Source of the DNA: Modestobacter sp. L9-4
GTDB lineage: Bacteria; Actinomycetota; Actinomycetes; Mycobacteriales; Geodermatophilaceae
Reading direction: 5' to 3'
Length of the DNA stretch: 64,000 nucleotides
Assembly: GCF_019112525.1 (NCBI RefSeq)
Contig: NZ_CP077800.1
Coordinates: 3,534,001-3,598,000 of the forward strand
Part shown: piece after piece, positions 20,841 to 61,390 of the stretch
Numbering within the stretch: the stretch's first letter is position 1
How the letters are laid out: every line of letters starts with the position of its first letter
Made by a program: the position numbers and the translations under genes
The notes under the pieces: model-generated
The model's input: only the letters and a program-made list of their open reading frames with translations
Databases searched by the model: none
What the model was told of the DNA's origin: nothing

Positions 20841-20903
20841 CGAACCGTCCCGTCGCCCCCCTGCCGCGTTCGACGGCGCGGGGCCCTGCGACGGGGCGGC
20901 CCC
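20841..20903 (+). terminator. Stop-proximal structured repeat, copy after ettA
   Basis: Begins directly after the ettA stop. CCCGTCGCCCCCC on the left and GGGGCCCTGCGACGGGG on the right pair through GTCGC/GCGAC and flanks. The same architecture follows the genes ending at 39864, 47119 (minus) and 61330. Confidence 0.6.
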
Positions 20904-20906
20904 GAT

Positions 20907-20948
20907 GGGCCCCTCCGCCACTGCTCCCGAGCGGTGGCAGAGGGGCCC
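20907..20948. terminator. Second hairpin after ettA
   Basis: An approximately 20-bp stem with two mismatches (GGGCCCCTCCGCCAC on the left arm), followed by short GC-rich direct repeats of about 17 bases (20946-20995). The rest of the gap up to 21094 holds nothing recognised. Confidence 0.55.
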
Positions 20949-21094
20949 GTCGTGCGTCGCGGCCCGTCGTGCGTCGCGGCCCCTCGGGCGTTGCGGCCCC
21001 TCGTGTCGCCAGCGTCGTCGGGGCGCCGGTCTGCGCGGTGTGGGGGTCGACGGCGCGGTCTACCGCGGCCAGCACCCCCACACCGCGACGGGCG

Positions 21095-21547
21095 TCAGCG
21101 GAAGCGGGCGACGAACCGGCGCTGCGACGGGGTCTCCACCGCACGCGGTCTGTAGTGGGCGCGCACGTACGCGACCGCCTCGGCCGCCGGGACCCCGTCG
21201 AGCACGGCGAGGCACGCCAGCGCGGTGCCGGTGCGGCCCGTCCCGCCGTGGCAGGCGACCTCCACCCGCTCGCCGGCCGCCCGCTCCCACACCGTCGCCA
21301 GCTCAGTGCGCAGCAGCGCCGGGTCCCGCGGCAGCCGGAAGTCCGGCCAGGGCACCCAGTGCTGCTCCCACGGCAGCTCCGGCGGGCGGCGCCCCAGCAG
21401 GTACAGCCCGACGTCCGGCAGCGGGCCGGGCGGCAGCGGGGCGCCCAGTCCCCGTCCGCGCACCCGGCGGCCCGACGGCAGGGTCAGCACCCCTGGCGCA
21501 CCGCCGTCCCAGCTGCCGGTCACGCCGGCGGGGCGGGGCAGCAGCAC
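21095..21547 (-). CDS. Protein-tyrosine/dual-specificity phosphatase-like protein
   Basis: A 150-residue cytoplasmic protein with the Cys-X5-Arg phosphatase loop in VACHGGTGRTGTALAC and an upstream WVPWPDFRLPRDP segment in the position of the general-acid loop. This supports hydrolysis of phosphotyrosine or a related phosphoester; the target is unknown. The gene stands just upstream, in the same direction as, the end of the small Zn-ribbon gene (30-base gap), so the two may be cotranscribed. Confidence 0.8.
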   Translation of the reverse strand: MLLPRPAGVTGSWDGGAPGVLTLPSGRRVRGRGLGAPLPPGPLPDVGLYLLGRRPPELPWEQHWVPWPDFRLPRDPALLRTELATVWERAAGERVEVACHGGTGRTGTALACLAVLDGVPAAEAVAYVRAHYRPRAVETPSQRRFVARFR

Positions 21548-21577
21548 GGCCTGGCCGGGGCAGGTGCGACGACCGGG

Positions 21578-21769
21578 TCACGGGACCGGAGGTGACCCGG
21601 GCAGAGTCGCCGGCCACGACGTGAGGTGCCAGCCGCGGCAGCGGGGACACCGGTAGGCCCGTTGCGGGGTCCGCTCCCGCGCGTCCTCGGCCAGCTGGAT
21701 GCGCGCCAGGGCGAGCTCCGCCGTGGCCTCGTCGCGGTACCGCCGCTTCGTGCACGCTCGCCCGGTCAC
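21578..21769 (-). CDS. Small putative zinc-ribbon protein
   Basis: A 63-residue protein: CTKRRYRDEATAELALARIQ, then AYRCPRCRGWHLTS. The pair of Cys in CPRC plus the downstream His and the upstream Cys could bind zinc. GTG 21769 has AAGGGAG a few bases upstream. Small proteins of this pattern are widespread in actinobacteria and phages without assigned function. It precedes the phosphatase gene in the same direction. Confidence 0.65.
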   Translation of the reverse strand: MTGRACTKRRYRDEATAELALARIQLAEDARERTPQRAYRCPRCRGWHLTSWPATLPGSPPVP

Positions 21770-22056
21770 GCGCTCCCTTCCCGTCCGACACTCCGGGGGC
21801 GCGGTGCCCACGCCGCCGCCGTGACGCCCCGCGCTCCGTCCACACCTCGATGGTCCCGCGCCCGGCGAGCTGATGCCGCCCACCGCCCGTGGTGCCTGGT
21901 GGTGGTGCGCAAGTAAGAGGTCGTCCCCTTCGGCAGGACCCGGCCCCGTCTGGTCGCGCACGCGCCGCCCCGACCGCAGCGGCGCCGGCCCAGACACGCC
22001 CCTGGTCCAGCACCCGCCGGCGCGGGCACGGTGGGGGAGTCCGGCACACTCCGCCG

Positions 22057-22554
22057 GTGACCGAGACCGAGTGGGAACACCGGGTGACCGCCGTGTGGGC
22101 GACGCTGGACGGCCGGCCGGAGCCCGAGTTCGTGGCCGCCGTCGACGCCCTCGCCGACGAGCTGCCCGCCGACAGCGGCGCGGCGGCGTTCGAGCGCGCG
22201 GCCGCCCGCGACTCAACCGGCCGCTCCGACCTCGCCGTCCCGCTGTACCGGGAGGCGCTGCGGCTCGGGCTGGCCGGTGAGCGCAGGCGCCGGGCCGTGG
22301 TCCAGCTGGCCAGCTCGTTGCGCAACCTCGGCCGGGCCGCCGAGAGCGTCGCGCTGCTCGAGGCGGAGCTGGGCCGGGGTGCCGACCACCTCGACGACGC
22401 GGTGCGCGGCTTCCTCGCCCTGGCGCTGGCCGACACCGGCCGGGAGCGGGAGGCGGTGTCGGTCGCGCTCACCGCGCTGGCCCCGCACCTGCCGCGCTAC
22501 CAGCGTTCGCTCGGGAACTACGCGCGCCTGCTGGTCGAGCCGGACCCGTCGTGA
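22057..22554 (+). CDS. Tetratricopeptide-repeat protein
   Basis: A 165-residue all-helical protein. Helical pairs such as DLAVPLYREALRLGL, RRRAVVQLASSLRNLGRAAESVALL and AVRGFLALALADTGREREAV have TPR spacing, so a protein-binding scaffold is likely; the partner is unknown. The GTG follows an approximately 285-base gap (21770-22056) in which I see no gene. The thioesterase gene begins 25 bases after its stop in the same direction. Confidence 0.75.
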   Translation: MTETEWEHRVTAVWATLDGRPEPEFVAAVDALADELPADSGAAAFERAAARDSTGRSDLAVPLYREALRLGLAGERRRRAVVQLASSLRNLGRAAESVALLEAELGRGADHLDDAVRGFLALALADTGREREAVSVALTALAPHLPRYQRSLGNYARLLVEPDPS

Positions 22555-22579
22555 GGGCGGCTGGGAGCGGGCTGGCAGG

Positions 22580-23005
22580 GTGGCGCGGGTGAGGCACACC
22601 GTGGCGGTCCCGATGCGCTGGTCGGACATGGACGCCTACCAGCACGTCAACAACGTGGCCTTCCTCGGCTACTTCGAGACGGCCCGCGTCGACCTGTTCT
22701 TCGACCACCCCACCCACGACGCCGAGACCGGCCTGCGCCGCGGCATCGTGGTGGCGGCGCACGAGATCACCTACAAGCGCCCGGTGGTCTACGACGCGCA
22801 GCCGCTGGAGGTGCAGATCTGGGTCAGCGGGATCCGCTCGGCGGCCTTCACCTGCCACTACGAGCTCCTCGACCACGGGCAGCTCGCGGTCACCGGCAGC
22901 ACCGTGCTGGTGCCCTTCGACTTCGCGGTGAACCGCCCGCGCCGGCTCACCCCGGAGGAGCGGGCCTTCCTGGAGCGCCACCTGGACGACGCCGCGCCGG
23001 CCTGA
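22580..23005 (+). CDS. Hotdog-fold acyl-CoA thioesterase
   Basis: A 141-residue 4HBT-type thioesterase that hydrolyses acyl-CoA. The signature MRWSDMDAYQHVNNVAFLGYFETARVD carries the catalytic Asp and the HVNN block. Length is normal. GTG 22580 or GTG 22589 are both possible. The gene corresponds by position to Rv2475c in the mycobacterial order. Confidence 0.88.
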   Translation: MARVRHTVAVPMRWSDMDAYQHVNNVAFLGYFETARVDLFFDHPTHDAETGLRRGIVVAAHEITYKRPVVYDAQPLEVQIWVSGIRSAAFTCHYELLDHGQLAVTGSTVLVPFDFAVNRPRRLTPEERAFLERHLDDAAPA

Positions 23006-23039
23006 GCCGGCGCTCACCTGCAGCAGGCCGGAACGCAGA

Positions 23040-23073
23040 CCGCCCCGCTGCCGGGTGGTCGGCAGCGGGGCGG
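23040..23073. terminator. Bidirectional terminator hairpin
   Basis: A perfect 13-bp stem (CCGCCCCGCTGCC with GGCAGCGGGGCGG, loop of 8) lies between the convergent thioesterase and bioY genes. Confidence 0.8.
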
Positions 23074-23088
23074 TCGGAGCGGTGCGGG

Positions 23089-23685
23089 TCAGCTGCGGCG
23101 GGTCAGCCGCCACGCGCCGCCGAGCACGCCCGCGCCCACGACGGCCTTGACCAGGCCGCCGAGGATGAACGGGGTGAAGCCGGCGGCGAGCGCCTGGCCG
23201 GCCGACATGCCGGTGCTGATCGCCAGCCACGGGACGCCGACGGCGAAGATGACGGCCTGGCCGGCGACGAACAGCGGCGCGGCCTTCAGCGGCTGGCGGT
23301 CCATGCCCCGGCGGGCGGCCATGCCGATCAGGTACGCGGCCGGGATGAAGCCGATGACGTAGCCGCCGGTGGCGCCGAAGACGACGTCGACGCCGCCGCT
23401 GGCCTCGGAGTAGAACGGCAACCCGACCAGCGCGGCCAGGATGTAGAACGCCTGCACGGCGACGCCGCGCACCGGGCCGAGGCTGGCCGCGGTCAGCACG
23501 ACGGCCAGGGTCTGACCGGTGATCGGCACCGGCGAGCCCGGGACCGGGATGGACACCTGCGCCAGCAGGGCGGTGAACAGCACGCCGAGGGCGACCAGGC
23601 CCGCGTTGCGGGCACGGACGGCCGGCACGAGGTCGGCGAGCACGAGCGGGCGCGCGGGCAGCGCGGGCATCGAGGCGGTGGCCAC
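23089..23685 (-). CDS. bioY: Biotin ECF transporter S component
   Basis: A 198-residue integral membrane protein with six predicted membrane segments. The BioY signature is clear: VPGSPVPITGQTLAVVLTAASLGP, then GLPFYSEASGGVDVVFGATGGYVIGF. It captures biotin and works with the shared EcfAA'T module, which is not in the window. GTG 23685 has TCCTCCT complement (AGGAGGA) four bases upstream. The 250-base region between bioY and the roadblock gene is divergent and should hold both promoters; no BirA or BioQ site was recognised. Confidence 0.93.
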   Translation of the reverse strand: MATASMPALPARPLVLADLVPAVRARNAGLVALGVLFTALLAQVSIPVPGSPVPITGQTLAVVLTAASLGPVRGVAVQAFYILAALVGLPFYSEASGGVDVVFGATGGYVIGFIPAAYLIGMAARRGMDRQPLKAAPLFVAGQAVIFAVGVPWLAISTGMSAGQALAAGFTPFILGGLVKAVVGAGVLGGAWRLTRRS

Positions 23686-23937
23686 GGGTCCTCCTGGGAG
23701 AGCGGGACGGCGCAGCGCGCCGTCGATCGGCAGAGAGTCTGCCCTACCCCTCCGGGACGTCGGCCCGGCGGTCGGACGGGCGGCCGGGAGGGCTGCACGA
23801 GCTCTCGGGAGCCCTTTCCGTTCCGTTGCCCTGAGTACCTGCCCGCTCACCTGCAGATACGTCCGCCGGTTTGCCCGGCCCGTCGGGGGCGTGTTCGCTG
23901 GGGTCCGGAGCCCCTCGGGGAAGGGCGGAGTCACGGC

Positions 23938-24657
23938 ATGGCAACCGGGTGGTGGACAGCTCTGCGGTCGTGGGGACGACCCGTACCGCAGGCCCCCCAC
24001 CCGTCGGCCGTCCGGGCTCCGGACCCGGTGCCCGAGGACCGCTCAGGGCCCGACCCCGCCCCCGCCGGGCCCGCCCTCGACGAGTCAGCACCGCAGGACG
24101 CAGCACCGCAGGACGCAGCACCGCAGGACGCAGCACCGCAGGACGCAGCACCGCAGGACGCAGCACCGCAGGACGCAGCACCGCAGGACGCAGCACCGCA
24201 GGACGCAGCACCGCAGTCCGGGCGACGTCCGGACCCGGTGGGCGGCGACCCGCTGCCCACCGCCACCACAACGACAGGAGCCTCCACCGTGGCCCAGCTC
24301 GACAACGTCATCGCCGACCTGCTCGCCATCGACGGCGCCACCGGCGCCGCGATCGTCGACATCGACAGCGGCATGGCCCTCGCGACCGGCGGCAACCCCG
24401 GCTTCGACCTCAACGTCGCGGCCGCCGGCAACTCGAACGTGGTGCGGGCGAAGCTCCGGACGATCACCGACCTCGAGCTGAAGGACGAGATCGAGGACAT
24501 CCTGATCACGCTGCAGGGCCAGTACCACCTGATCAACGTGCTCCGCGGTCAGGGCAACGCCGGTCTGTTCATCTACCTGGTGCTCAACCGGACGACGGCG
24601 AACCTCGCGCTGGCCCGGCACAAGCTGCGCTCGGTCGCCGCCGGCGTGGCGGTCTAG
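23938..24657 (+). CDS. Roadblock/LC7-domain protein with a tandem-repeat N-terminal extension
   Basis: The C-terminal 122 residues form a complete roadblock/LC7 domain (AQLDNVIADLLAIDGATGA through LARHKLRSVA). Such proteins regulate small GTPases. The 117 residues before it are Pro/Asp/Ala-rich and include eight PQDAA units. Two starts are supported: ATG 23938 with GGAG seven bases upstream gives 239 residues, and GTG 24289 with AGGAG eight bases upstream gives the usual 122-residue form. Both may be used. No GTPase gene is adjacent. Confidence 0.8.
   Translation: MATGWWTALRSWGRPVPQAPHPSAVRAPDPVPEDRSGPDPAPAGPALDESAPQDAAPQDAAPQDAAPQDAAPQDAAPQDAAPQDAAPQDAAPQSGRRPDPVGGDPLPTATTTTGASTVAQLDNVIADLLAIDGATGAAIVDIDSGMALATGGNPGFDLNVAAAGNSNVVRAKLRTITDLELKDEIEDILITLQGQYHLINVLRGQGNAGLFIYLVLNRTTANLALARHKLRSVAAGVAV
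24091..24210 (+). repeat. Eight exact 15-bp tandem repeats
   Basis: CCGCAGGACGCAGCA occurs eight times without a single mismatch, followed by a partial unit to 24216. The unit is a multiple of three and encodes PQDAA in the frame of the roadblock gene. Identity of the units implies recent expansion or homogenisation. Confidence 0.98.
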
Positions 24658-24697
24658 TCGACCCGGCGGTGCCGCCCCACCCGGGGTGGCACCGCCG

Positions 24698-26221
24698 TCA
24701 CGCGGCGGTCGCGGCCTCGAGGATCCTGGCGCGGACGGTCTCGACGGCGAGGTCGCCGGCCTCGATCCAGCGGGTGACCCGGCCACCGGACACGATGCCG
24801 ATGCGGTCGCAGCACTCGGCCAGCTCGTCGGGGTCCACCGACACCACCACGACCGACGTGCCGTGCTGGGTCGCGTCGTCCAGCAGCTGGCGCACCTGCT
24901 GGCGGGCCCGCACGTCGAGACCGCGGGTGGGCTCATGGAGGACGACGACGTCGCGCGCCGAGGCCATCCACCGCGCGAGCGCCAGCTTGTGCTGGTCGCC
25001 GCCGGACAGCGCACCGAAGGAGGTGCGGATGCTGAGGGTCTTGACGTCCATCTGGTGCACCGTGCGGATCACCCCGCGCAGCGTGGCGATCTCCTTGTGC
25101 AGGTCGCTGAGGGTGCCCCACGCCTCCTGGGTGAGCGTGCGGGCGATGGTCTCGCCCGGGTCGACCCCGTAGGCGTCCTCGTCGGCCCGGTAGACCGGCA
25201 GCTGCAGCGCGTGCTCGCCCGCTGCGGTGCTCAGCTCGCGCGGCTCGCCGTGCAGCAGCAGTGCGTCGGTGACGGCCGGCAGCTCGCCCGACAGCGCCCC
25301 GGCGATCTCGCGGACGCCGGAGGAGCGGTGCCCGGTCAGCCCGATGACCTCACCGCGCCGCACCTGCAGGTCGACACCGTCGACGGCGCCGGGCACCCGC
25401 AGGTTGCGGACCTCGAGTGCCACCTCGGCGTCCCCGGCCCGCGGGGCAGGCGGCCGGACGGCGGCGGGAGCGGGCCCGGACGGCGCCGGGACCCGGGCGG
25501 CGGGCAGCGGCACCGGCTCGCCCACGGTCTCGGCGGCCAGCCGCACCGGGTCGAGCTCGGCGGCCGGGCTGTCCAGCGCGATCCGCCCGTCGCGCAGCAC
25601 CAGCACCCGGTCGACGACCGCGAGCAGCTCGGGCAGCCGGTGGCTGATGTAGAGCACGCCCCGGCCCTGGCGGCTGAGCCGGCCGGCCACGGCGTGCAGG
25701 CTGGTGACCTCCAGCGGGAGCAGTGCCGCCGACACCTCGTCGAGCACCACCACCTGGGTGTCCTCGGCGAGCACCCGGGCGATCTCCACCAGGCCGTGCA
25801 CGAAGTGCGGCAGCTCGCCGACCGGCGTGTCCGGGTCGACGTCCAGGGTGACCTCGGACAGCAGCGCCTGCGCCGGGCGGCGCAGCTCCGCCTGCGGCCG
25901 GCCGGCCCGCTCGGTGCCGCGGAAGACCGCCTGGGCGACGGTGAGCGCGGGGTCGATGCGCACCAGCTGTTCCACCACGCCGATGCCCAGCAGCCCGGCG
26001 TCCTCGACCGACAGCGGGGCGTACGGGCGGCCGCGCAGCGTCATCGTGCCGGCGTCGGCGGCGGTGATGCCGGCGAGGACGTCACCGAGGGTGGACTTGC
26101 CCGCGCCGTTGGTGCCGACGAGCCCGACGATCTCGCCCTCACCGACCCCGAAGGTGACGCCCTTGAGGACGCGCCGGGCACCGAAGGACTTCCGTAGACC
26201 CTCGACCTGCAACAACGCCAT
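24698..26221 (-). CDS. Tandem ABC-transporter ATPase, sugar-import (RbsA/MglA) type, orphan
   Basis: A 507-residue protein with two nucleotide-binding domains. Domain 1 has Walker A GTNGAGKST but a degenerate signature (LPHFVHG where the family has LSVGQQQ-like). Domain 2 has a degenerate Walker A (GHRSSGVRE, no Lys) but an intact signature LSGGDQHKLALARW. The composite sites are thus one good (Walker A1 with signature 2) and one dead. No permease or binding-protein gene lies beside it, so its transporter partner is elsewhere or it has another role. ATG 26221 chosen as the start of the conserved domain. Confidence 0.85.
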   Translation of the reverse strand: MALLQVEGLRKSFGARRVLKGVTFGVGEGEIVGLVGTNGAGKSTLGDVLAGITAADAGTMTLRGRPYAPLSVEDAGLLGIGVVEQLVRIDPALTVAQAVFRGTERAGRPQAELRRPAQALLSEVTLDVDPDTPVGELPHFVHGLVEIARVLAEDTQVVVLDEVSAALLPLEVTSLHAVAGRLSRQGRGVLYISHRLPELLAVVDRVLVLRDGRIALDSPAAELDPVRLAAETVGEPVPLPAARVPAPSGPAPAAVRPPAPRAGDAEVALEVRNLRVPGAVDGVDLQVRRGEVIGLTGHRSSGVREIAGALSGELPAVTDALLLHGEPRELSTAAGEHALQLPVYRADEDAYGVDPGETIARTLTQEAWGTLSDLHKEIATLRGVIRTVHQMDVKTLSIRTSFGALSGGDQHKLALARWMASARDVVVLHEPTRGLDVRARQQVRQLLDDATQHGTSVVVVSVDPDELAECCDRIGIVSGGRVTRWIEAGDLAVETVRARILEAATAA

Positions 26222-26368
26222 GGCGGGCCTCCCGGGGCGGGTCCAGCGACGCTGGTGGACAGGTGGTGAGCGTCCCCCGCGACGCTGAGTAACTGGTCGG
26301 ATGCTACCTGGCGCCGGAGCGGACACCTCCCGGGGCAGCGCGCCCCGGGAGGTGTCCCGACGGGTCGG

Positions 26369-27955: not shown

Positions 27956-27995
27956 CGGGGGCTCCTGCGGGTGTGGAGGGGCTGCGGCGCCCGGG

Positions 27996-29745: not shown

Positions 29746-29870
29746 CGGCCGTCCGCCCGGGACGCCGCGCCCTCGCTGCCGGTGACCGGCCGTGTACGCC
29801 CCATGACGAGGAATTCTGACATGTGGAACGGAACCGGCCGGGACCGACCAGGGGGCGCCGGGCGCGTCGT

Positions 29871-29902: not shown

Positions 29903-29911
29903 GGTGCACGC

Positions 29912-39336: not shown

Positions 39337-39864
39337 GTGAGCACCGCGATCTCGTCCACTCCTTCGTCCTCCGGAGACCGTTCCCCGATGTCGTCGTCGT
39401 TGCAGGCACAGGCCCATCCGCAGCAGTCGCCGGACGCCGGCCACACCTCGACGAAGGACACCGCGAACTCCGTCGTCGACGACGCCAACATCGGGCTGTT
39501 CTCCTACCGCGACCTGGCGCGCATCGACGAGGCGCTGACCATGTCGACGAAGGAGACCGGCCTCCGGTTCACCCTGTACATCGGCGACCTGGGCCGCGAC
39601 ACCCGCGCCACCGTCGAGGACATGCACCAGCGCTCCGGCGGCGACGTCAGCAACGGCGTCCTGGTCGCCATCTCGCCCGGGCAGCGGGTGCTGGAGATCG
39701 TCACCGGCACCTCCGCCGCCCGCCGGCTGCCCGACCGCGCGTGCGCCCTCGCCGTGCTGTCGATGACCAACCGGCTCGGCTCCGGCGACCTGGTCGGGGC
39801 CATCGTCAACGGCTTCCGCCAGCTGTCGGACTCCGCAGGCCACCCCGCGCGCCGCGGTCACTGA
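39337..39864 (+). CDS. DUF5130 family protein
   Basis: A 175-residue protein related to the TPM-like fold. The conserved part starts at LFSYRDLARIDEALTMSTKETGLRFTLYIGDLG and includes ISPGQRVLEIVTGTSAARRL. The first 45 residues are Ser/Gln-rich and likely disordered. Function unknown. Position next to pepN equals that of Rv2468c. GTG 39337 follows the upstream stop by four bases. Confidence 0.85.
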   Translation: MSTAISSTPSSSGDRSPMSSSLQAQAHPQQSPDAGHTSTKDTANSVVDDANIGLFSYRDLARIDEALTMSTKETGLRFTLYIGDLGRDTRATVEDMHQRSGGDVSNGVLVAISPGQRVLEIVTGTSAARRLPDRACALAVLSMTNRLGSGDLVGAIVNGFRQLSDSAGHPARRGH

Positions 39865-39925
39865 CGAAGGACCCCTCGCCCCCCATCACTCGCACGCTCG
39901 TGGCGGGTCCCTGCGAGGGGGCCGA
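39865..39925 (+). terminator. Stop-proximal structured repeat, copy after DUF5130 gene
   Basis: Directly after the stop: GACCCCTCGCCCCCC on the left and GGGTCCCTGCGAGGGGG on the right form a CCCCTCGC/GCGAGGGG stem over an approximately 30-base loop. Related copies follow genes ending at 20840, 47119 and 61330. Confidence 0.65.
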
Positions 39926-39928: not shown

Positions 39929-39961
39929 GCCCCGCCTCCCGGGATTGCCGGGAGGCGGGGC
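39929..39961 (+). terminator. Strong intrinsic terminator
   Basis: A perfect 14-bp stem (GCCCCGCCTCCCGG with CCGGGAGGCGGGGC, loop of 5) followed by TTGTGTCGTTCT. A further 8-bp stem follows at 39974-39995. Confidence 0.85.
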
Positions 39962-40133
39962 TTGTGTCGTTCTCGCCCCCTGCGATCAGGGGGCGGCGAA
40001 CGCCAGCAGCCCAGGACGGGCCCGGTCCTGGGCCCTGTGGGTCCACCGCCTCCAGGAGCAACGGCCGACCCGCCGGCTCCGGGCCCGTCGGGCGGCGCGT
40101 CCCGGTCTCCGCCGCGGGCACAGGGCCGCGCCT

Positions 40134-43636: not shown

Positions 43637-44407
43637 ATGGCGAGGCCCCCGGTCCGGCAGCGGATCCTCATCACCGGTGCGAGCGCCGGGCTCGGTGCCG
43701 GCATGGCCCGGCGGTTCGCCGCCCGGGGTCGCGACCTCGCGTTGGTGGCCCGGCGGCAGGACCGGCTGGAGGCCCTGCGCGACGAGCTGGTCACCCGGCA
43801 CCCCGGTGTCCGGGTGGTGCTCGCCCCGCTGGACGTCGACGACCCGGACGCCGTGGCCGAGGTCGTGCCGCGGCTGGCCGCCGAGCTCGGCGGGCTGGAC
43901 CGGTTCATCGCCAACGCCGGGCTGGGCAAGGGCACCGCGGTCGGCACCGGCCACCCGCGGCCCAACCGGCAGGTGCTGGTCACCAACGTGCTGGGCACGC
44001 ACGCCTGCTGCGAGGCCGCCGTCGCGCTGTTCCGCGCGCAGGGCGCCGGCCACCTGGTGGTCGTCTCCTCCGTCGCCGGGGTCCGCGGCATGGGCGGCAC
44101 CCGCACGGCCTACGCCGCGTCCAAGGCCGCCGACGCGGTGCTCGCCGAGGGCATCCGCGCCGACCTGCTCGCCGACCGGGCCACCCGCGGCATCCGGGTC
44201 ACCACCGTGCACCCCGGGTTCATCGCGACCGACCTGAACACCGGACGGCGCGGCTCGTTCACCGTGGACCTCGACACCGGCGTCACCGCGCTGACCGCGG
44301 CGATCGAGCGCGAGCCGGTGCGCGCCTACGTGCCGGAGTGGCCGTGGCGGCCGGTCGCCGGGCTGCTGCGGGTCCTGCCGCTGCCGCTGGCCCGCCGGCT
44401 GGGTTAG
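43637..44407 (+). CDS. Short-chain dehydrogenase/reductase
   Basis: A 256-residue classical SDR. Cofactor motif TGASAGLGAG, structural NAG, active-site Ser in VVVSSVAG and YAASK with catalytic Tyr and Lys are all present. The Arg residues after the second strand (ARRQDRL) suggest NADP. The C-terminus is hydrophobic and Arg/Pro-rich, which may bind membranes. Substrate unknown. Confidence 0.9.
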   Translation: MARPPVRQRILITGASAGLGAGMARRFAARGRDLALVARRQDRLEALRDELVTRHPGVRVVLAPLDVDDPDAVAEVVPRLAAELGGLDRFIANAGLGKGTAVGTGHPRPNRQVLVTNVLGTHACCEAAVALFRAQGAGHLVVVSSVAGVRGMGGTRTAYAASKAADAVLAEGIRADLLADRATRGIRVTTVHPGFIATDLNTGRRGSFTVDLDTGVTALTAAIEREPVRAYVPEWPWRPVAGLLRVLPLPLARRLG

Positions 44408-44408: not shown

Positions 44409-44428
44409 GCGGGGACCCGGGTCCCCGC
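44409..44428. terminator. Perfect 20-bp palindrome between convergent genes
   Basis: GCGGGGACCCGGGTCCCCGC is fully self-complementary and lies between the SDR stop (44407) and the MBL hydrolase stop (44442). Confidence 0.6.
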
Positions 44429-44441
44429 ACACGTCGCAGGC

Positions 44442-45209
44442 TCAGTGCGGGCCCCCGACCCGGGCCGACGCGACCGCGCGGGTCTGCTCGTCGAACGCCG
44501 GGGGCGCGCCGGGCTCGGTCAGCCACCGCGCCAGCCGGGCCAGCTCGTCACGCTGGGCGGCCACGAAGCCGGCGTCGACCACCGCGCCGTGCCCGGGCAC
44601 CACCGGACCGGCCACCGCGGCCAGCAGCGCGGTGAGGGTGCCGGCCCACTCCAGCGGGAAGGCGTCCTCCATCGCCGGGGGAGCGCCCTCCTCGACCAGG
44701 TCGCCGGCGAACACGACGTCGTCGACCGCCACCACCAGGTCGCCGTCGGTGTGCCCGCGGCCCAGGTGGCGCAGGCGCACCGCCCGGCCGCCGACGTCGA
44801 GCACGGCCGCGCCGTCGACGAGGTGGTCAGGGCCGTCGATCGGCGCGGTGGCGACCAGCTCGGCCGCCGGGTCGCCGTCGGCGCGCAGGCCGGTGACGAC
44901 CTCGGCCCGCTGCAGCTCGCCGGTGGCCGCCAGCGCCTCGGCGCACCGGCGGCTGGCCCAGACCGGTGCCGGGCGGAACGCGGCGTTGCCGAAGCAGTGG
45001 TCGTGGTGGGCGTGGGTGTTGACCACCGTCCACGGGTGCCCGGTCACCGTCCGCACCGCCTCGGCCAGCGCCTGCCCCTCACCCAGGTGCGACCGGGTGT
45101 CGACCACCAGGCAGGCGCCGTCGCCGACGACCAGGCCGCAGTTGAGGTCCAGCTCGCGGTGCCGCCGGACGAACACCCGGTCGCCGACCTCGCGCCAGCC
45201 GGCGGTCAC
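44442..45209 (-). CDS. MBL-fold metallo-hydrolase
   Basis: A 255-residue metallo-beta-lactamase-fold hydrolase with a dinuclear metal site: THAHHDHCFGN, HLGRGHTDGD, FAGDLVE and VPGHGAVV. It is not a typical beta-lactamase; substrate unknown. GTG 45209 overlaps the stop of the DUF429 gene (GTGA), which sets the start; an in-frame longer version would run into that gene. Confidence 0.88.
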   Translation of the reverse strand: MTAGWREVGDRVFVRRHRELDLNCGLVVGDGACLVVDTRSHLGEGQALAEAVRTVTGHPWTVVNTHAHHDHCFGNAAFRPAPVWASRRCAEALAATGELQRAEVVTGLRADGDPAAELVATAPIDGPDHLVDGAAVLDVGGRAVRLRHLGRGHTDGDLVVAVDDVVFAGDLVEEGAPPAMEDAFPLEWAGTLTALLAAVAGPVVPGHGAVVDAGFVAAQRDELARLARWLTEPGAPPAFDEQTRAVASARVGGPH

Positions 45210-47055: not shown

Positions 47056-47118
47056 CAGTCGGCCCCCTTGCAGGGTCCCGCCGCGAGCTTGCGAGTGGCG
47101 GGGGGCAAGGGGGCCCTT
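47056..47118 (-). terminator. Stop-proximal structured repeat, copy after Eis-like gene
   Basis: On the minus strand it begins right after the TAG at 47119. GGCCCCCTTGC pairs with GCAAGGGGGCC, 11 bp, with an inner GC stem. Same family as the elements at 20841, 39865 and 61332. Being palindromic, it can also serve the convergent DinB-like gene. Confidence 0.65.
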
Positions 47119-51484: not shown

Positions 51485-51492
51485 GGGCCGGT

Positions 51493-52863: not shown

Positions 52864-53031
52864 CTCGCCTGCGGATGCTCCCGGCGGGCGGGCACGGTGT
52901 CCAGCACCGATCGGGTGACGGGCCCCGCACCGGACCGCGGGGTCCCGCCTAGGGTGACGGGGCCGTCCATGAGGTCGCGCCCTCCGACCCGCGTGCCGCG
53001 CGGGCGGTACGACCCACCGGGGAAGTTGATG

Positions 53032-54771: not shown

Positions 54772-54856
54772 CGGTCGCGCGGCCGTACGCCTTGGTTCCG
54801 TCGGTGCCCTCGGGCACCATCGGCCACCACGTCGACGACGACCGCGGGAGCCAGCC

Positions 54857-55873
54857 ATGACCGGTGTGATCAGCGAACTGCCCGGGGTGGGCACGGCCGC
54901 GGAGCTGGAGCCGCGGCTGGCCGAGCACCGGCGGGAGCTGACCGGCTACTGCTACCGGATGCTCGGGTCGATCTTCGACGCGGAGGACGCCGTCCAGGAG
55001 ACGATGCTGCGAGCCTGGCGGTCCCTCGACCGGCTCGAGGGCAGCGGTGCGCTGCGCTCCTGGCTCTACCGCATCGCCACCAACGTCTGCCTGGACGCGC
55101 TGGCCGGGCGCAAGCGGCGCGCGCTGCCGGTCGACATGTCCGCCGAGCCGTCCGCGCCGGTGCCGGCGTCGCTGGCCGGGGTGCTCGCCGACGGGGCGTG
55201 GGTGGAGCCCGCGCTCGACCGGCAGGTGCTGCCCTCCGGTGGCGGTGACCCGGCCGAGATCGCGGTGCAGCGGGACTCGGTGCGGCTGGCGTTCATCGCC
55301 GCGCTGCAGCACCTGCCGCCCCGCCAGCGGGCGGTGCTGATCCTGCGCGACGTGCTGCGCTGGCGGGCCGACGAGGTCGCGGCACTGCTGGGCACCTCGG
55401 TCGCGGCGGCCAACAGCGCGCTGCAGCGGGCCCGGGCCACCCTCGCGGCGCAGCAGGCCGGGCCGGCCGCCCCGCCGCGCGAGCTGGCCGAGGACCAGGC
55501 CGAGCTGCTGGCCCGCTACCTCGACGCGTTCGCCCGCTACGACATCGACGCCCTCGTGGCGCTGCTGCACGAGGACGCGGTGATGGACATGCCGCCCTTC
55601 GCCATGTGGCTGCGCAGCGCCGCCGACATCGCCACCTGGTTCGTCGGCCCGGGCGCGGGCTGCCGCGGCTCGCACGTCGTCCCGCTCCAGGTCAACGGCG
55701 ACCCGGCCTTCGCGCAGTGGCGCCCCAGCGGCCCCGGCGGGCAGTTCGAGCCGTGGGCGGTGCACGCGCTGCAGTTCTCCGGCGGGCGGGTCACCCGGAT
55801 GACGGCCTTCCTCGGCCCGCGGCTGTTCGAGGCCTTCGGCCTGCCGCTGCACCCGACGCCGGCGGACCGATGA
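54857..55873 (+). CDS. ECF sigma factor with C-terminal SnoaL-like domain
   Basis: A 338-residue sigma-70 family protein. Region 2 is YCYRMLGSIFDAEDAVQETMLRAWR, region 4 is LPPRQRAVLILRDVLRWRADEVAALLGTS, and a SnoaL-like domain follows (about 215-335; LLARYLDAFARYDIDALVALL). ECF factors of this plan usually lack an anti-sigma partner and the C-terminal domain controls them. No anti-sigma gene is adjacent. First gene of a four-gene operon; its TGA overlaps the next ATG (ATGA). Confidence 0.9.
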   Translation: MTGVISELPGVGTAAELEPRLAEHRRELTGYCYRMLGSIFDAEDAVQETMLRAWRSLDRLEGSGALRSWLYRIATNVCLDALAGRKRRALPVDMSAEPSAPVPASLAGVLADGAWVEPALDRQVLPSGGGDPAEIAVQRDSVRLAFIAALQHLPPRQRAVLILRDVLRWRADEVAALLGTSVAAANSALQRARATLAAQQAGPAAPPRELAEDQAELLARYLDAFARYDIDALVALLHEDAVMDMPPFAMWLRSAADIATWFVGPGAGCRGSHVVPLQVNGDPAFAQWRPSGPGGQFEPWAVHALQFSGGRVTRMTAFLGPRLFEAFGLPLHPTPADR

Positions 55874-56304
55874 GTCCTGCCGGTCCCGGTGGTCCCCACC
55901 CCATGACGACCACCACGGGCCCGCTCACCGACAGCCCGGCCTTCAGCGGCTTCTCCGTCGACGACCTGGACGCGGCACGTTCGTTCTACGAGGAGGTGCT
56001 GGGGCTGCGCACCAGCGTCGAGCCGGAGATGCGGGGTGTGGCCCACCTGCACCTGGCGGGTGGCCGCGACGTGCTCGTCTACGCGAAGGGGGCGGCGCAC
56101 GCGCCCGCCTCGTACACGGTGCTCAACTTCCCCGTGCCCGACGTCGACGCGGCCGTGGCCGAGCTGACCGGGCGCGGCGTCCGGTTCCTGCAGTACGACC
56201 AGCCGCCCACCGACCCGACGGGCGTGATGCGCGCGGGCGGCCCGCTGATCGCCTGGTTCACCGACCCGGCAGGCAACGTCCTCTCCGTCATCGAGGCCCG
56301 CTGA
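55870..56304 (+). CDS. VOC-superfamily (glyoxalase-like) protein
   Basis: A 144-residue protein of two beta-alpha-beta-beta-beta units: FSGFSVDDLDAARSFYEEVLGLRT and the closing AWFTDPAGNVLSVIE. Relatives include glyoxalases, dioxygenases and resistance binding proteins. ATG 55870 overlaps the sigma stop; ATG 55903 is an alternative that starts nearer the domain. Its stop overlaps the next start (TGATG). Confidence 0.87.
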   Translation: MSPAGPGGPHPMTTTTGPLTDSPAFSGFSVDDLDAARSFYEEVLGLRTSVEPEMRGVAHLHLAGGRDVLVYAKGAAHAPASYTVLNFPVPDVDAAVAELTGRGVRFLQYDQPPTDPTGVMRAGGPLIAWFTDPAGNVLSVIEAR

Positions 56305-56861
56305 TGGGCCGGCTGCAGTACGCGGTGATCAGCTCCCTCGACGGGTACACCGTCGACGCCGACGGCCGGTTCGACTGGGCGGCGCCGGACGAGGAGCTGC
56401 ACGCGTACGTCAACGACCTCGAGCGGCCGGTGGGCACCCACCTGTACGGCCGCCGCATGTACGAGACGCTCGCCGTCTGGCAGGACGTCGCCGGTCCGGG
56501 GCACGACCCGGTCGAGCTCGACTACGCCGAGGTCTGGCGGGCCGCGGACAAGGTCGTCTACTCGACGACGCTGGCGGCCGTCCGCACGCCGCGCACGCGG
56601 CTGGAGCGCGCGTTCGACCCCGCGGTGGTCGCCGCGCTCGTGGCCGGCTCCGAGCGGGACGTGGCCGTCGGCGGACCGGGGCTGGCCGCGTCCGCGCTGC
56701 GCGCCGGGCTGGTCGACGACCTCCACCAGTTCCTGCACCCGGTCGTGGTCGGCGGGGGCACCCGGGCACTGCCCGAGGGCGTGCGGCTGGACCTCGAGCT
56801 GGTCGGTGAGCGCCGCTTCGCCGGCGGCGTCGTGCACCTGCACCACCGCGTCCGCCGGTGA
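56304..56861 (+). CDS. Dihydrofolate reductase-family protein
   Basis: A 185-residue RibD C-terminal/DHFR-like reductase: LQYAVISSLDGYTVDADGRFDW, LYGRRMYETLAVW, DVAVGGPGLAASALRAGLVDDLHQFLHPVVVGGGTR. Substrate unknown. It overlaps both neighbours, so it is translated as part of the sigma operon. Confidence 0.9.
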   Translation: MGRLQYAVISSLDGYTVDADGRFDWAAPDEELHAYVNDLERPVGTHLYGRRMYETLAVWQDVAGPGHDPVELDYAEVWRAADKVVYSTTLAAVRTPRTRLERAFDPAVVAALVAGSERDVAVGGPGLAASALRAGLVDDLHQFLHPVVVGGGTRALPEGVRLDLELVGERRFAGGVVHLHHRVRR

Positions 56862-57853
56862 GGCACCCGCTCACGCCGGCAGAGCTCGGGGCCGTCCTCG
56901 CCCACGCGCTGGGCGGTGCCGCGGTCGGCGCGGTGACCCGGGAGCTCACCGAGGGCACCTTCAACGCCGCCCACGCCGTCGACCTCCTCGACGGGCGTCA
57001 GCTGGTGGTCAAGGTCGCGCCACCGCCGGGCACGCCGCTGCTGACCCACGAGCGGCACCTGCTGCGCACCGAGGCGATGTGCCTGCGCATGGTCGCCGAG
57101 CGCACCGACGTCCCCGTGCCCGAGCTGGTGTCCGCCGGCACGGACCCCCTCGGCCGGGAGCACCTGGTCACCTCGCTGCTCCCGGGCGCCTCCTGGTCGT
57201 CGCAGGCGGCGCGGCTCGACGACGCCACCCGCCGGGTGCTGCGCCGACAGGTCGGGCGGCACGTCGCGGAGCTGCACACGGTCACCGGGGAGGGCTCCTT
57301 CGGCTACCCGGGCCGGCCGGAGCTCTGTGCCCCGACGTGGCGGGGTGCCTTCGGGCGGATCGTCGACGCCGTCCTCGACGACGCCACCCGGTACGGCGTC
57401 GTCCTGCCCCTGCCGGCCGAGGAGGTCCGGGCGCGGGTGCACGCGGCGGCCGACGTCGCCCTGCGCGCGGTCACCACACCGGTGCTGGTGCACGCCGACC
57501 TGTGGGACGGCAACGTCTTCGTCGACCTGGACCGGCCCGACCCGCAGGTGAGCGGGTTCATCGACCACGAGCGGGCGCTCTGGGGCGACCCCGCCGCGGA
57601 CCTGGTGTCCCTGGCCCTGCTGGCCGACGTCGCCGACGACGCCGACCTGCTGGCCGGCTACGCGGAGGCGGGTGGGCCGGTCGTGCTGGACGAGGCCACC
57701 CGGTACCGCTTGCACCTGTACCGCGCGCACCTGGCGCTGGTCATGGTCGTGGAGGCGGTGCCGCGGGGGACCGCCGGGCCGGAGCACGCCGGCTGGAACG
57801 ACCGCGTGGCCCGGTGGCTGGCCGGTGAGCTGGCGGCGCTGGAGCGCACGTGA
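56858..57853 (+). CDS. Aminoglycoside phosphotransferase (APH)-family kinase
   Basis: A 331-residue kinase-fold protein: ELTEGTFNAAHAVDLLDGRQLVVKVAPP (ATP-binding Lys), then VLVHADLWDGNVFVD (catalytic loop HxDxxxxN) and GFIDHERALWGDPAADL (metal-binding Asp). Members phosphorylate antibiotics or small metabolites; the target is unknown. Its GTG overlaps the preceding stop (GTGA). It ends four bases before tRNA-Gly on the opposite strand. Confidence 0.87.
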   Translation: MRHPLTPAELGAVLAHALGGAAVGAVTRELTEGTFNAAHAVDLLDGRQLVVKVAPPPGTPLLTHERHLLRTEAMCLRMVAERTDVPVPELVSAGTDPLGREHLVTSLLPGASWSSQAARLDDATRRVLRRQVGRHVAELHTVTGEGSFGYPGRPELCAPTWRGAFGRIVDAVLDDATRYGVVLPLPAEEVRARVHAAADVALRAVTTPVLVHADLWDGNVFVDLDRPDPQVSGFIDHERALWGDPAADLVSLALLADVADDADLLAGYAEAGGPVVLDEATRYRLHLYRAHLALVMVVEAVPRGTAGPEHAGWNDRVARWLAGELAALERT

Positions 57854-57857
57854 GCGG

Positions 57858-57931
57858 TGGAGCGGGTGACCGGGATCGAACCGGCATGGCCAGCTTGGAA
57901 GGCTGGGGCTCTACCATTGAGCTACACCCGC
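57858..57931 (-). tRNA. tRNA-Gly(TCC)
   Basis: A 74-nt cloverleaf on the minus strand including encoded CCA (57860-57858). Acceptor GCGGGTG (57931-57925) pairs with CACCCGC (57868-57862). Anticodon loop CTTCCAA gives TCC for GGA codons. Confidence 0.95.
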
Positions 57932-57999
57932 GGGGCACCCCTGGAGGTGCCTGCACAGCCTACCGGTCGCCCTCGGTGCCTAGACTCAGCGGCGGGCCA

Positions 58000-58073
58000 C
58001 GGGGTGTAGCGCAGCTTGGTAGCGCACCCGCTTTGGGAGCGGGGGGCCGTGGGTTCGAATCCCGCCACCCCGA
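58000..58073 (+). tRNA. tRNA-Pro(TGG)
   Basis: A 74-nt cloverleaf: CGGGGTG at 58000 pairs with CACCCCG at 58066-58072, discriminator A. Anticodon loop TTTGGGA gives TGG for CCA codons. The CCA end is not encoded. Confidence 0.95.
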
Positions 58074-58078
58074 CTCGC

Positions 58079-58108
58079 GTGAAGCGTCGTCGCCGACGTC
58101 TCTAGACT
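58079..58108 (+). promoter_or_regulatory. Possible tig promoter
   Basis: GTGAAG (58079-58084) and TAGACT (58103-58108) are spaced 18 bases and lie 64 bases before the tig start. The same TAGACTC precedes tRNA-Pro at 57981. Weak -35, so tentative. Confidence 0.35.
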
Positions 58109-58171
58109 CGGTGGCGACCTGACGCCGCCGGCGTCAGGTCCCCGTCTGTCCCCCAAGAGGAGCGCTGCCCT

Positions 58172-59740
58172 GTGAAGAGCACCATCGAGAACCTGGGCCC
58201 GACCCGGGTCCGGCTCGCGATCGAGGTGCCGTGGAGCGACCTGGACCACGCTTTCGGTGAGGTCTACAAGGAGCTCGGCCGCCAGGTGCGCGTCCCCGGC
58301 TTCCGCCCCGGCAAGGTCCCGACCCGCGTGCTCGACCAGCGGATCGGGCGTCCCGTCGTCCTGGAGCAGGTCGTCCAGCACGCCGTCCCGGAGGTCTACT
58401 CCGAGGCCGTCCGCGAGAAGCAGGTCCGCGTCATCAGCCAGCCCGAGGTGTCGGTCACGCGCCTCGAGGACGGCGAGGTCCTGGAGTTCACCGCCGAGGT
58501 CGACGTCGCCCCCACGGTCGAGCTGCCCCCGCTGGACGCCCTGGCGGTGACCGTCGACGACGTCGCGGTCAGCGACGAGGAGATCGACCAGCAGGTCGAC
58601 GTCATGCGCGAGCGCTTCGCCACCCTCACCGGTGTCGAGCGGGCTGCCGAGGACGGCGACTACGTCTCCATCGACCTGGAGGCCACGCTGAACGGCGAGG
58701 TCCTCGAGGACGGCAGCACCACCGGCATGTCCTACGAGGTCGGCTCCGGCAACCTGATGAACGGCCTGGACGAGGCCGTCCGCGGTCTGTCCACCGACGA
58801 GAGCGCCACGTTCTCCACCGCCCTGCTGGCCGGCGACCAGGCCGGTGAGGTCGCCGACGTGACCGTCACCGTCCGCTCGGTCAAGGCCAAGGAGCTGCCC
58901 GAGCTCGACGACGAGTTCGCCTCGATCGCCAGCGAGTTCGACACCCTCGAGGAGCTGCGGGCCGACGTCCGCACCCGGCTGTCCCGCACCAAGGTGCTGC
59001 AGCAGGGGGCCCAGGCCCGCGACAAGCTGGTCGAGCACCTGCTCGAGGTCACCGAGGTCCCGGTGCCGGAGAACATGGTCGAGCAGGAGCTCACCTGGCG
59101 CAGCCAGGCCATGGAGCGCGAGCTCCAGCAGGCCGGCATGGACTGGGACGCCTACTTCTCCATGGCCGGGATCGAGAGCCGCGAGGCCTACGACGCCGAC
59201 CTGCGCGAGAACGTCGAGAAGGCGGTCAAGACCCAGTTCATCCTCGACTCGGTCGCCGACGCCCGCGAGGTCACCGTCGACAACGAGGACCTCTCGGCCC
59301 AGATCATGGCCGCCGCGCAGCGCAACCGGGTCAGCCCGGAGCAGTACGCGCAGCAGCTGCAGCAGGGCAACAACATCGCCGACTTCGTCGCCGACGTGCG
59401 CCGCACCAAGGCGCTGGCCCAGATGCTGGAGCAGACCACGATCACCGACGAGTCGGGCAACGTCGTCGACCTGGAGGCCCTGCGCCCGCAGACCGTCTCC
59501 GCCGACGACCACGCCGGTCACGACCACTCCGGTCACGACCACGACCACGCGGGTCACGACCACGACCACGACCACGCCGGTCACGACCACGGCGAGGACG
59601 ACGCGGAGGACGTCGCAACCGAGGACGCGGTCACCGACGCGCCGAAGCCCGACGTCGCCAGCGACGCCCCGGCCGCGGCGGTCGTGACCGACTCCGAGGC
59701 CGCCGTCGACGACGCCGAGGGCAGCACCGACAAGGCCTGA
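58172..59740 (+). CDS. tig: Trigger factor
   Basis: A 522-residue ribosome-associated chaperone and prolyl isomerase. N-terminal ribosome-binding domain with the signature in VPGFRPGKVPTRVL, FKBP-type PPIase domain (about 160-245), and C-terminal chaperone domain to about residue 430. The tail is longer than usual and holds a His/Asp tract (residues 447-473, 12 His in 27) then an acidic end. GTG 58172 has AGAGGAG about nine bases upstream. Position before clpP1-clpP2 matches other actinobacteria. Confidence 0.95.
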   Translation: MKSTIENLGPTRVRLAIEVPWSDLDHAFGEVYKELGRQVRVPGFRPGKVPTRVLDQRIGRPVVLEQVVQHAVPEVYSEAVREKQVRVISQPEVSVTRLEDGEVLEFTAEVDVAPTVELPPLDALAVTVDDVAVSDEEIDQQVDVMRERFATLTGVERAAEDGDYVSIDLEATLNGEVLEDGSTTGMSYEVGSGNLMNGLDEAVRGLSTDESATFSTALLAGDQAGEVADVTVTVRSVKAKELPELDDEFASIASEFDTLEELRADVRTRLSRTKVLQQGAQARDKLVEHLLEVTEVPVPENMVEQELTWRSQAMERELQQAGMDWDAYFSMAGIESREAYDADLRENVEKAVKTQFILDSVADAREVTVDNEDLSAQIMAAAQRNRVSPEQYAQQLQQGNNIADFVADVRRTKALAQMLEQTTITDESGNVVDLEALRPQTVSADDHAGHDHSGHDHDHAGHDHDHDHAGHDHGEDDAEDVATEDAVTDAPKPDVASDAPAAAVVTDSEAAVDDAEGSTDKA

Positions 59741-59750
59741 CCTCCCACCA

Positions 59751-59796
59751 CGACAGCGCCGCCCGCACCCCGCCCGGGGTCCGGGCGGCGCTGTCG
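59751..59796 (+). terminator. Terminator of tig
   Basis: A perfect 15-bp stem (CGACAGCGCCGCCCG with its complement), inner loop of 16 that can pair further (ACCCCG with CGGGGT), 10 bases after the stop. Confidence 0.8.
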
Positions 59797-59832
59797 TTCC
59801 CGGGAGTCCCGGGTCGCTGCCCGGCCCCGCTG

Positions 59833-59843
59833 CGCCCAGGGCG
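59833..59843 (+). promoter_or_regulatory. ClgR-type box upstream of clpP1
   Basis: CGCCCAGGGCG fits the actinobacterial ClgR consensus CGC-N5-GCG, including the inner A and purine, and is followed by AA. It lies about 200 bases before clpP1 and 43 bases before a TAGGGT -10-like hexamer (59886-59891). ClgR activates clp genes in Streptomyces, Corynebacterium and Mycobacterium. Confidence 0.5.
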
Positions 59844-60038
59844 AACACCGGCCCGCACCGGGAGGAACCCGTCGGGGGTGCGCGTTAGGGTCGTCGTGAC
59901 ATCGAGGCGGTCAACGAGGCCGCACGGACGACGACCGCCCAGCGCGGCCGTCCGCGGCCTCGGCGCCCGCCTCTCGACCACCGGCAACCCGTTCCACGAG
60001 ACCGACTGCACCGCAGTCCTACGGAGGTCACCGCACCC

Positions 60039-60689
60039 GTGAGCAACCCAGCCCTGATCACCCCCGGCACGCCGATGCTGCGTGGCGGTGGGTCGATGAT
60101 GAACCTCAACGACTCGGTCTACGAGCGCCTGCTGCGCGAGCGGATCATCTTCCTGGGCAGCCAGGTCGACGACGTGATCGCCAACCAGCTCGCCGCGCAG
60201 ATGCTGCTGCTGTCCGCCGAGGACCCGACGCGCGACATCCACCTCTACATCAACTCGCCCGGTGGCTCGGTGACCGCCGGCATGGCGATCTTCGACACGA
60301 TGCAGTTCATCGACTGCGACGTGGCCACCTACGCGATGGGCCTGGCCGCCTCGATGGGCCAGTTCCTGCTCACCGCGGGCACCAAGGGCAAGCGCTACTC
60401 GCTGCCGCACACGCGGATCCTCATGCACCAGCCCTCGGCCGGCGTCGGCGGCACCGCCTCCGACATCGCCATCCAGGCGGAGCTCTTCCGCAGCACCAAG
60501 CGGCAGCTCAACGAGCTGCAGTCTCAGTTCACCGGGCAGACGGTCGAGCAGATCGAGAAGGACTCCGACCGCGACCGCTGGTTCACCGCGCAGGAGGCCC
60601 TCGAGTACGGCTTCGTCGACCACGTGGTGACGCGTGCGGAGACCATGACCTCGACCGACAACCCGGTCACCGACGGACCGGAGAAGTGA
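60039..60689 (+). CDS. clpP1: ATP-dependent Clp protease proteolytic subunit 1
   Basis: A 216-residue ClpP. Catalytic Ser in [14 protein letters not shown], His in [10 protein letters not shown], Asp in [17 protein letters not shown] is the oxyanion region. Actinobacteria pair ClpP1 with ClpP2 in a mixed 14-mer. GTG 60039 follows CGGAGG by 11 bases, a little long; a start at ATG 60075 cannot be excluded. Stop overlaps a GTG six bases before the preferred clpP2 ATG. Confidence 0.95.
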
Positions 60690-60691
60690 CC

Positions 60692-61330
60692 ATGAGCGAC
60701 TTCCAGATGCCGGAGAGCCGGTACATCCTCCCCTCCTTCGTCGAGCGCACCAGCTACGGCATGAAGGAGTCCAACCCCTACAACAAGCTCTTCGAGGAGC
60801 GCATCATCTTCCTCGGGGTGCAGGTGGACGACGCCTCGGCCAACGACGTGATGGCCCAGCTCATCACGCTGGAGTCCAACGACCCCGACCGCGACATCAC
60901 CATGTACATCAACTCACCCGGTGGCTCGTTCACCGCGCTGACGGCGATCTACGACACGATGATGTTCGTCCGCCCCGACATCCAGACCGTGTGCATGGGC
61001 CAGGCCGCCTCGGCTGCCGCCGTCCTGCTCGCGGCCGGCACCAAGGGCAAGCGCCTGGCGCTGCCGCACTCCCGGGTCCTCATCCACCAGCCCTCCGGCG
61101 AGGCCGGCGGTCAGGTGACCGACCTGGAGATCCACGCGAACGAGATCGAGCGCGTGCGCGTGCAGATGGAGCAGATCCTGGCCCGGCACACCGGCCAGAC
61201 CCAGGAGCAGGTCCGCAAGGACATCGACCGCGACAAGATCCTCACGGCCGAGCAGGCCATGGAGTACGGGATCGTCGACCAGGTCATCCCGAGCCGCAAG
61301 CTCAACGCACTGCCCCCCATCCCGGCCTGA
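60692..61330 (+). CDS. clpP2: ATP-dependent Clp protease proteolytic subunit 2
   Basis: A 212-residue ClpP paralogue. Catalytic Ser in [14 protein letters not shown], His in [10 protein letters not shown], Asp in [18 protein letters not shown] oxyanion region. ATG 60692 is chosen because GGAG lies eight bases upstream; GTG 60686 overlaps the clpP1 stop (GTGA). The two genes are one operon. The unit ends in two hairpins. Confidence 0.95.
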
Positions 61331-61331
61331 T

Positions 61332-61390
61332 CGAGGACCCCCTCGCCCCCCACCCCTCGCACCTCGGGGCGGGACCCTGCGAGGGGCTGC
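61332..61390 (+). terminator. Stop-proximal structured repeat, copy after clpP2
   Basis: Directly after the stop: GACCCCCTCGCCCCCC on the left and GGGACCCTGCGAGGGG on the right. Stem CCCCTCGC/GCGAGGGG. Same family as at 20841, 39865 and 47056. Confidence 0.7.

Follow-up and report, generated by a model that had tools for sequence, protein, structure and literature searches.

Modestobacter sp. L9-4 carries, dispersed over its chromosome, a family of short two-stage hairpins, most of which begin within 14 nucleotides (nt) of a stop codon and face the same way as the gene they follow. Four copies lie in a 64,000-nt stretch of this genome (contig NZ_CP077800.1, positions 3,534,001 to 3,598,000), which at its full length is called the window here; the genome itself is labeled G000, and other G and L labels stand for genomes of relatives and loci extracted from them. 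The evidence points to an undescribed element of the repetitive extragenic palindrome (REP) type that is tied to gene ends, rather than to a simple transcription stop signal. We put the probability at about one half that the family consists of dispersed palindromes of the REP kind that are kept at stop codons and, as we infer, act there like the REPs found near stops in Escherichia coli.

The four window copies, each in the orientation of its gene, had already been picked out in a sequence-only reading of the window. Their hairpin cores lie at 20848..20896 (plus strand, 7 nt past the conserved ettA stop, TGA 20838-20840; 54.2 bits with R1, the covariance model built from these four copies), at 39871..39921 (plus strand, 6 nt, or 7 in the family register, past the TGA of a DUF5130 gene at 39862-39864; 72.9 bits), at 47063..47113 (minus strand, 5 nt past the TAG of an Eis-like acetyltransferase gene, 47121-47119; 74.4 bits), and at 61338..61387 (plus strand, 7 nt past the clpP2 TGA, 61328-61330; 71.5 bits). 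Of these copies, that of ettA diverges most. The elements had been described as starting within about three bases of the stop; this holds for a purine-rich flank (GAAGGA or similar), which occupies most of the 5 to 8 nt between stop and stem and in the third copy overlaps the TAG itself, but not for the stem, which begins 5 to 8 nt from the stop. Folding z-scores of the four copies (−3.6, −0.7, −3.4, and −1.6, in order of position) are not decisive when taken singly.

Across the family, the unit consists of a GAAGGA-like 5′ flank, a 51-nt two-stage hairpin, and a 3′ CCG. The outer stem has 9 pairs, whose middle bases vary yet remain complementary; a conserved asymmetric internal loop (CC/NCCCT) separates it from an inner stem of 7 pairs, which is broken by an A-C mismatch and closed by an apical loop of about 10 nt (e.g., TCGCAAGCTC). 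The commonest flank six-mers at 112 sites are GAAGGA (53), GGAGGA (12), GAAGGG (6), and TAAGGA (5). We assessed structure on 118 aligned rows, 114 of them distinct, in an alignment fitted to the model, which favors pairing. Paired cells made up 93.5%, compared with 79.1% in shuffles and 49.1 to 61.0% in slid versions; double changes were seen in 256 cells (66.7 in shuffles) and compensated at 14 of the 16 pairs (8.2 in shuffles), and the covariation score was 0.376, against 0.124 for shuffles and 0.051 to 0.108 for slid versions. The structure of the family is beyond chance, and the covariation first noticed in four copies extends to the larger set. Both the asymmetry of the internal loop and the A-C mismatch are kept in most of the 118 copies. 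A tail, GTTCCANCA, follows 12 of the 140 chromosomal copies described below with at most one mismatch and is also seen by eye in copies of other genera; the further conserved tail CCGTTCCANCACGTCAC on some copies suggests that the unit was originally some 75 nt long.

A search of the 4.22-Mb chromosome with R1, with scoring of the top 150 of 6,900 candidates, returned at least 140 copies at E ≤ 1, and relatives carry copies as well, bearing out the proposal of a dispersed family. An unbiased sample of the chromosome (17 stretches of 20 kb, 340 kb in all) held 8 copies at E < 0.01, and because 3 of these are outside the 140, the true copy number is higher. The exact pattern CCCCTCGCNCCCCC had 0 matches over the genome, being too rigid for this purpose.

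The position of these copies relative to genes was measured against gene ends from codon-based gene calling made for this analysis, not from annotation; the ettA copy, where the caller read the frame through the element, was left out of the gene-end counts (n = 139). By the codon model, 126 of the 140 copies have a coding-like stop on the same strand within 200 nt upstream. The hairpin starts 3 to 14 nt past the stop in 110 of the 140 and at exactly 7 nt in 54, while 16 copies lie farther than 14 nt away, many of them standing behind another unit in a tandem pair or array. Only 3.8% of random noncoding points fall 3 to 14 nt past a same-strand stop, which makes the excess about 21-fold, and the postulated link to gene ends is thereby confirmed as a position bias. 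Copies stand between a gene end and the next gene start in 78 cases, between convergent ends in 54, from start to end in 6, and from start to start in 2; within codirectional intervals the ratio of sense to antisense is 78:6, and divergent intervals, which make up 29% of intergenic bases, hold 2 of the 140. Gene ends lie within 20 nt on both sides of 20 of the 139 copies. A similar placement is seen beyond the genus: two genomes from other genera with few copies (G033 and G025) yielded 28, and in 26 of these the corresponding 15 nt contain a stop triplet, whatever the frame, compared with 11% of background windows.

Pfam scans of 30 genes upstream of the element in G000 showed ordinary chromosomal ones (e.g., ahcY, gcvT, Ni-SOD, and a gyrB-type gene); one of the 30 had no Pfam match. 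Neighboring copies among the 140 form 13 pairs, all 13 head to tail, and a further search found one inverted pair, in L052. An array at G000:C1:673675-673986 (L042) consists of six head-to-tail copies, 2 to 4 nt apart, behind a DUF4193 gene.

Relatives differ in which gene ends carry a copy: from one to the next, copies come and go, change direction, and occur nested or in tandem. Among the DUF5130 orthologs on 80 named genome contigs, the later covariance model, R2, matched 17 of the 80 loci at E ≤ 0.1 on either strand; the weakest of these matches, L208, is a near-perfect palindrome and doubtful. Nested composite copies are present in L155 and L166, and collapsed remnants occur, such as the form in G019, which is the one expected from a short-repeat deletion in a G009-like copy, as do perfect collapsed palindromes. 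At one of these loci, L199 (Blastococcus tunisiensis DSM 46838), a tandem array of units of about 20 nt (TGAGCTCCTTGCGCCAGCAC-like) begins at about position 1975, directly behind the DUF5130 gene.

We compared G000 with its closest relative, G010, at 27 element sites in a syntenic stretch. In G010, 12 of these sites hold an element in the same direction, 3 a reversed one (one of them 80 nt off), and 12 no R2 match; hairpins of another kind or in collapsed form stand at some of these last. Two copies that share a site resemble each other only slightly more than randomly chosen ones do: identity is 80.2% between occupants of one site (12 pairs), compared with 78.1% for all cross pairs, and 38 of 500 random assignments reach 80.2%, while the flanks at shared sites are 91% identical. 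The nusG site is filled in 12 of 18 Modestobacter-group genomes; in these copies 178 of 192 cells are paired, and 8 of the 16 pairs show double changes. For six of the 28 copies in G033 and G025, G000 also has a copy behind the gene in question, with the ends aligned; the same probably holds for a seventh (L270).

As far as sampled, the family is specific to the Geodermatophilaceae. In the wider genome scans, in which the 15 to 100 best candidates were scored per genome, R2 matched at E ≤ 1e−5 in 85 of 96 Geodermatophilaceae genomes, and the number of copies per genome ranged from 0 in near-complete genomes (e.g., G451 and G511) to at least 61, with 61 candidates scored in each. A set of 59 relatives gave 32 matches, in 32 of the 35 members of the family and 0 of the 24 drawn from the order's other families; sampling across the class gave matches in 2 of 394 genomes (15 candidates scored per genome), both of them Geodermatophilaceae. 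Rfam at the gathering score found only tRNAs in the window, with no match to the element, and on five loci at E ≤ 1 gave two subthreshold, chance-type matches, neither at the element. Plasmids had no match to a 76-base query, and viral contigs none to an exact pattern, no phage collection being searched. We found no account of such a repeat in the Geodermatophilaceae in the literature; subscription journals were mostly outside the search, so that absence from print is not proven.

The search for a mobilizer covered proteins as well as flanks. Pfam on 43 proteins beside clustered or low-copy copies found no transposase, and two proteins were without a match. G000 has a reverse transcriptase domain (RVT_1) at G000:C1:3165605-3166228, in an open frame of 484 amino acids, whose distribution is unlike that of the element. 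We rejected reverse transcriptase as the mover: RVT_1 is present in 9 of 25 genomes, is missing from several element-rich ones, and does not track copy number.

The sequence-only reading had suggested a dispersed terminator, or else an mRNA 3′-end element, attached to genes. Like intrinsic terminators, the element is a GC-rich hairpin soon past a gene, and its copies between convergent gene ends fit that role; in contrast to them, it lacks a T tract on the sense strand, is conserved in sequence, and is present inside an operon. Five or more T in the 12 nt past the hairpin are found on the sense strand in 1 of 140 copies. G000 has copies behind nusG, rplK, and rplA (genes identified by Pfam), which are normally cotranscribed, and across the 18 Modestobacter-group genomes these three sites carry copies in varying combinations (one rplA row, that of G007, is out of register in the comparison). 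Copies in G000 also stand behind trpC and behind the gene of a membrane protein of the trp operon. At many DUF5130 loci, moreover, another hairpin is seen by eye downstream, with and without the element. On the antisense strand there is a pyrimidine tract past the hairpin, with a mean of 3.7 T in 12 nt and 5 or more in 36 of 140 copies, so that the hairpin might halt transcription that enters from the opposite direction. Because copies stand inside an operon and the T tract is missing, the label of terminator is unsupported, and we consider this role quite improbable; the element may have a role at mRNA 3′ ends.

Stop codons at element sites have a composition of their own. In the set of 112 of the 140 sites with a coding-like stop at no more than 14 nt, 90 stops are TGA, 17 TAG, and 5 TAA, compared with 338 TGA, 19 TAG, and 2 TAA in a background of 359 called genes (the unbiased sample plus the window, a few of them carrying the element). 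TAG and TAA together thus account for 22 of 112 element sites versus 21 of 359 genes (Fisher P = 4e−5). All 55 sites of this set with a distance of 7 nt have TGA; 14 of the 17 TAG codons lie 5 or 8 nt from the hairpin and all 5 TAA codons 3 or 4 nt from it, and the element's own 5′ bases overlap the TAA and many of the TAG codons. When the nusG and rplK sites are taken together, 5 of 18 filled sites have TAA but 0 of 18 unfilled ones (counted with a reversed copy in G008 and collapsed remnants in G021 and G018), and the last sense codon is in the same place in 36 of 36.

On the grounds of this enrichment and of TAA at the filled nusG and rplK sites, the element might be a mobile hairpin that homes to stop codons, with its 5′ junction in or right behind the stop codon, which it would rewrite. 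A T followed by the element's AAGGA or GAAGGA would yield TAA, TAG, or TGA, so that the upstream protein would be preserved at any landing site. The machinery moving it would be neither a Y1 transposase of the REP-associated tyrosine transposase (RAYT) type nor a reverse transcriptase, the latter being disfavored because of its distribution. We regard this proposal as tentative and rather doubtful.

Several further explanations bear on the same observations. The most serious holds that the element is an mRNA 3′-end or intercistronic RNA element selected by the host, read by a protein or RNase through the internal loop, and evolving in place. The conserved CC/NCCCT loop, compensatory changes at single orthologous sites, the fixed spacing from the stop, and the at least six, probably seven, copies of other genera that share a gene with G000 all speak for it; yet near-complete genomes of the family (e.g., G451 and G511) have no copy among 61 candidates scored in each, loss and collapse are frequent, copies are nested and in tandem, and 12 of 27 G000 sites lack an R2 element in the closest relative. 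We take this explanation to be possible but not probable. Covariation could also be mutational, if the element is a decaying repeat under no selection, a quasi-palindrome in which template switching rewrites one arm from the other. This would account for orthologous arms that differ strongly although their flanks are 91% identical, and for perfect collapsed palindromes, but such switching would tend to even out the asymmetric loop and the A-C mismatch, both of which persist, and it leaves the placement and orientation bias unexplained; we therefore judge it unlikely. Finally, structures 5 to 8 nt past a stop codon resemble known recoding stimulators, so that the hairpin might conceivably promote readthrough. 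All three stop codons are used, however, the 20 copies with gene ends within 20 nt on both sides leave little room for an extension, and no conserved extension was noticed by eye in 18 genomes, and we give such a recoding signal hardly any credence.

Under the reading that we prefer, that of a REP-like palindrome retained at stops, copies would disperse through the genome, decay through deletions that span the hairpin, and be replaced or remodeled, surviving almost only directly behind a stop and in the sense of the gene. Filled and empty alleles, nested copies, the 13 head-to-tail pairs, and copy numbers from 0 to at least 61 are mobility-like signs. Survival behind stops in gene sense leads us to expect transcription of the element into 3′ untranslated regions and intercistronic RNA. 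Given the geometry of the ribosome, the base of the hairpin would meet the leading edge of a terminating ribosome; the hairpin would slow ribosome release and, as a putative barrier to exonucleases, shield the mRNA end without ending transcription.

Several results weigh against this reading. Arms at orthologous sites are 79% alike, versus 65% for random ones (12 pairs), and some stems at the nusG site recur in several species, so that some copies were inherited and changed in place. One copy, in L200, is reversed directly behind a stop, with no convergent stop within about 50 nt. The RAYT family (PF01797, Y1_Tnp) was found neither in G000 nor in 35 genomes of the family, in a search whose control matched 5 of 14 known genomes. 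There is no general target-site duplication, the longest words shared between flanks being like those of shuffled pairs, so that movement is inferred and not proven. The exceptions are the tandem array at 673882 and L272 (G033, approximately 1464-1588), where a 37-nt flanking direct repeat includes the end of a convergent gene, the sole case of its kind among those seen.

The window holds some further features near these copies. A relaxed regular expression run over it returned the four strong copies and no others; a weak, degenerate fifth copy at 44415..44465 (plus strand, 37.6 bits) came from R2 and lies 7 nt past a TAG (44405-44407) that ends a called gene (43637-44407), and the orthologous place in G010 is without an element. 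Downstream of the second copy, a separate hairpin read by eye at 39930..39967 (plus strand, GCCCCGCCTCCCGGG...CCGGGAGGCGGGGC) is not part of the element and is a further candidate terminator-type hairpin at the DUF5130 gene end; a terminator pattern scan had no match there. The ettA frame (19171-20840) is interrupted in the assembly, its two ATP-binding cassette (ABC) domains and its last residues being in different frames, whereas in G010 ettA is one open frame. The break is either a sequencing error or a real frameshift, and the first copy still lies behind the conserved stop. At the 3′ end of clpP2 in G010, a different hairpin, long and nearly perfect, stands in place of the G000 element and equally far from the stop.

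Comparison with known repeats, as described in the papers cited, places the element close to REPs. Like REPs in the broad sense, it is a short extragenic palindrome in high copy number, mainly between codirectional or convergent genes. In E. coli, REPs no more than 15 nt from a stop codon are reported to stall ribosomes, and 446 of 4,072, or 260 of 496 in an earlier study, are that close (PMC5082802; PMC12306157). The element likewise puts a hairpin right behind the stop, within the same 15 nt, and in a larger share of its copies (110 of 140, at 3 to 14 nt); by analogy, we would predict a corresponding stalling of ribosomes here. With the GTAG class of REPs, REP doublets forming hairpins (REPINs), and bacterial interspersed mosaic elements (BIMEs), which are associated with RAYTs (PMC3733652; PMC2817692), it shares a short, imperfectly palindromic, GC-rich sequence, a copy number above 100 in a genome, a location mostly downstream of genes, and arm changes that keep pairing. 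In contrast to them, it has GAAGGA in 53 of 112 sites instead of an unpaired GTAG (GT(A/G)G) head, pairs arranged head to tail in 13 of 13 cases instead of mostly head to head, a sharply fixed distance from the stop codon, and, in 35 family genomes, no detectable Y1 transposase. REPs tagged with CGTC are REP-like repeats that also do without a dedicated transposase (PMC3733652), but they have that tag, a stem of 8 to 9 bp, and a loop of 4 to 5 bases, whereas the element has two stacked stems, an internal loop, and an apical loop of about 10 nt, and the fourth position of its 3′ flank is T in 16 of 140 copies. Because tag, RAYT, and dimer type did not agree, we have not filed the element in either class. 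Mycobacterial interspersed repetitive units (MIRUs; PMC12548453) are, like it, small, apparently mobile actinobacterial repeats that sit at a translation signal and leave the gene intact, but they insert at start codons and carry a coupled open reading frame, while the element is a hairpin at stop codons.

With this element the REP-like palindromes gain an actinobacterial family for which our search found no RAYT and whose link to stop codons is tighter than the figures given for E. coli. Since a given gene end may be filled in one close relative and empty in another, including the ends of nusG-rplK-rplA, the effect of such a hairpin on ribosomes and mRNA is directly testable, and species of one genus with and without copies provide a basis for seeking the mobilizer.

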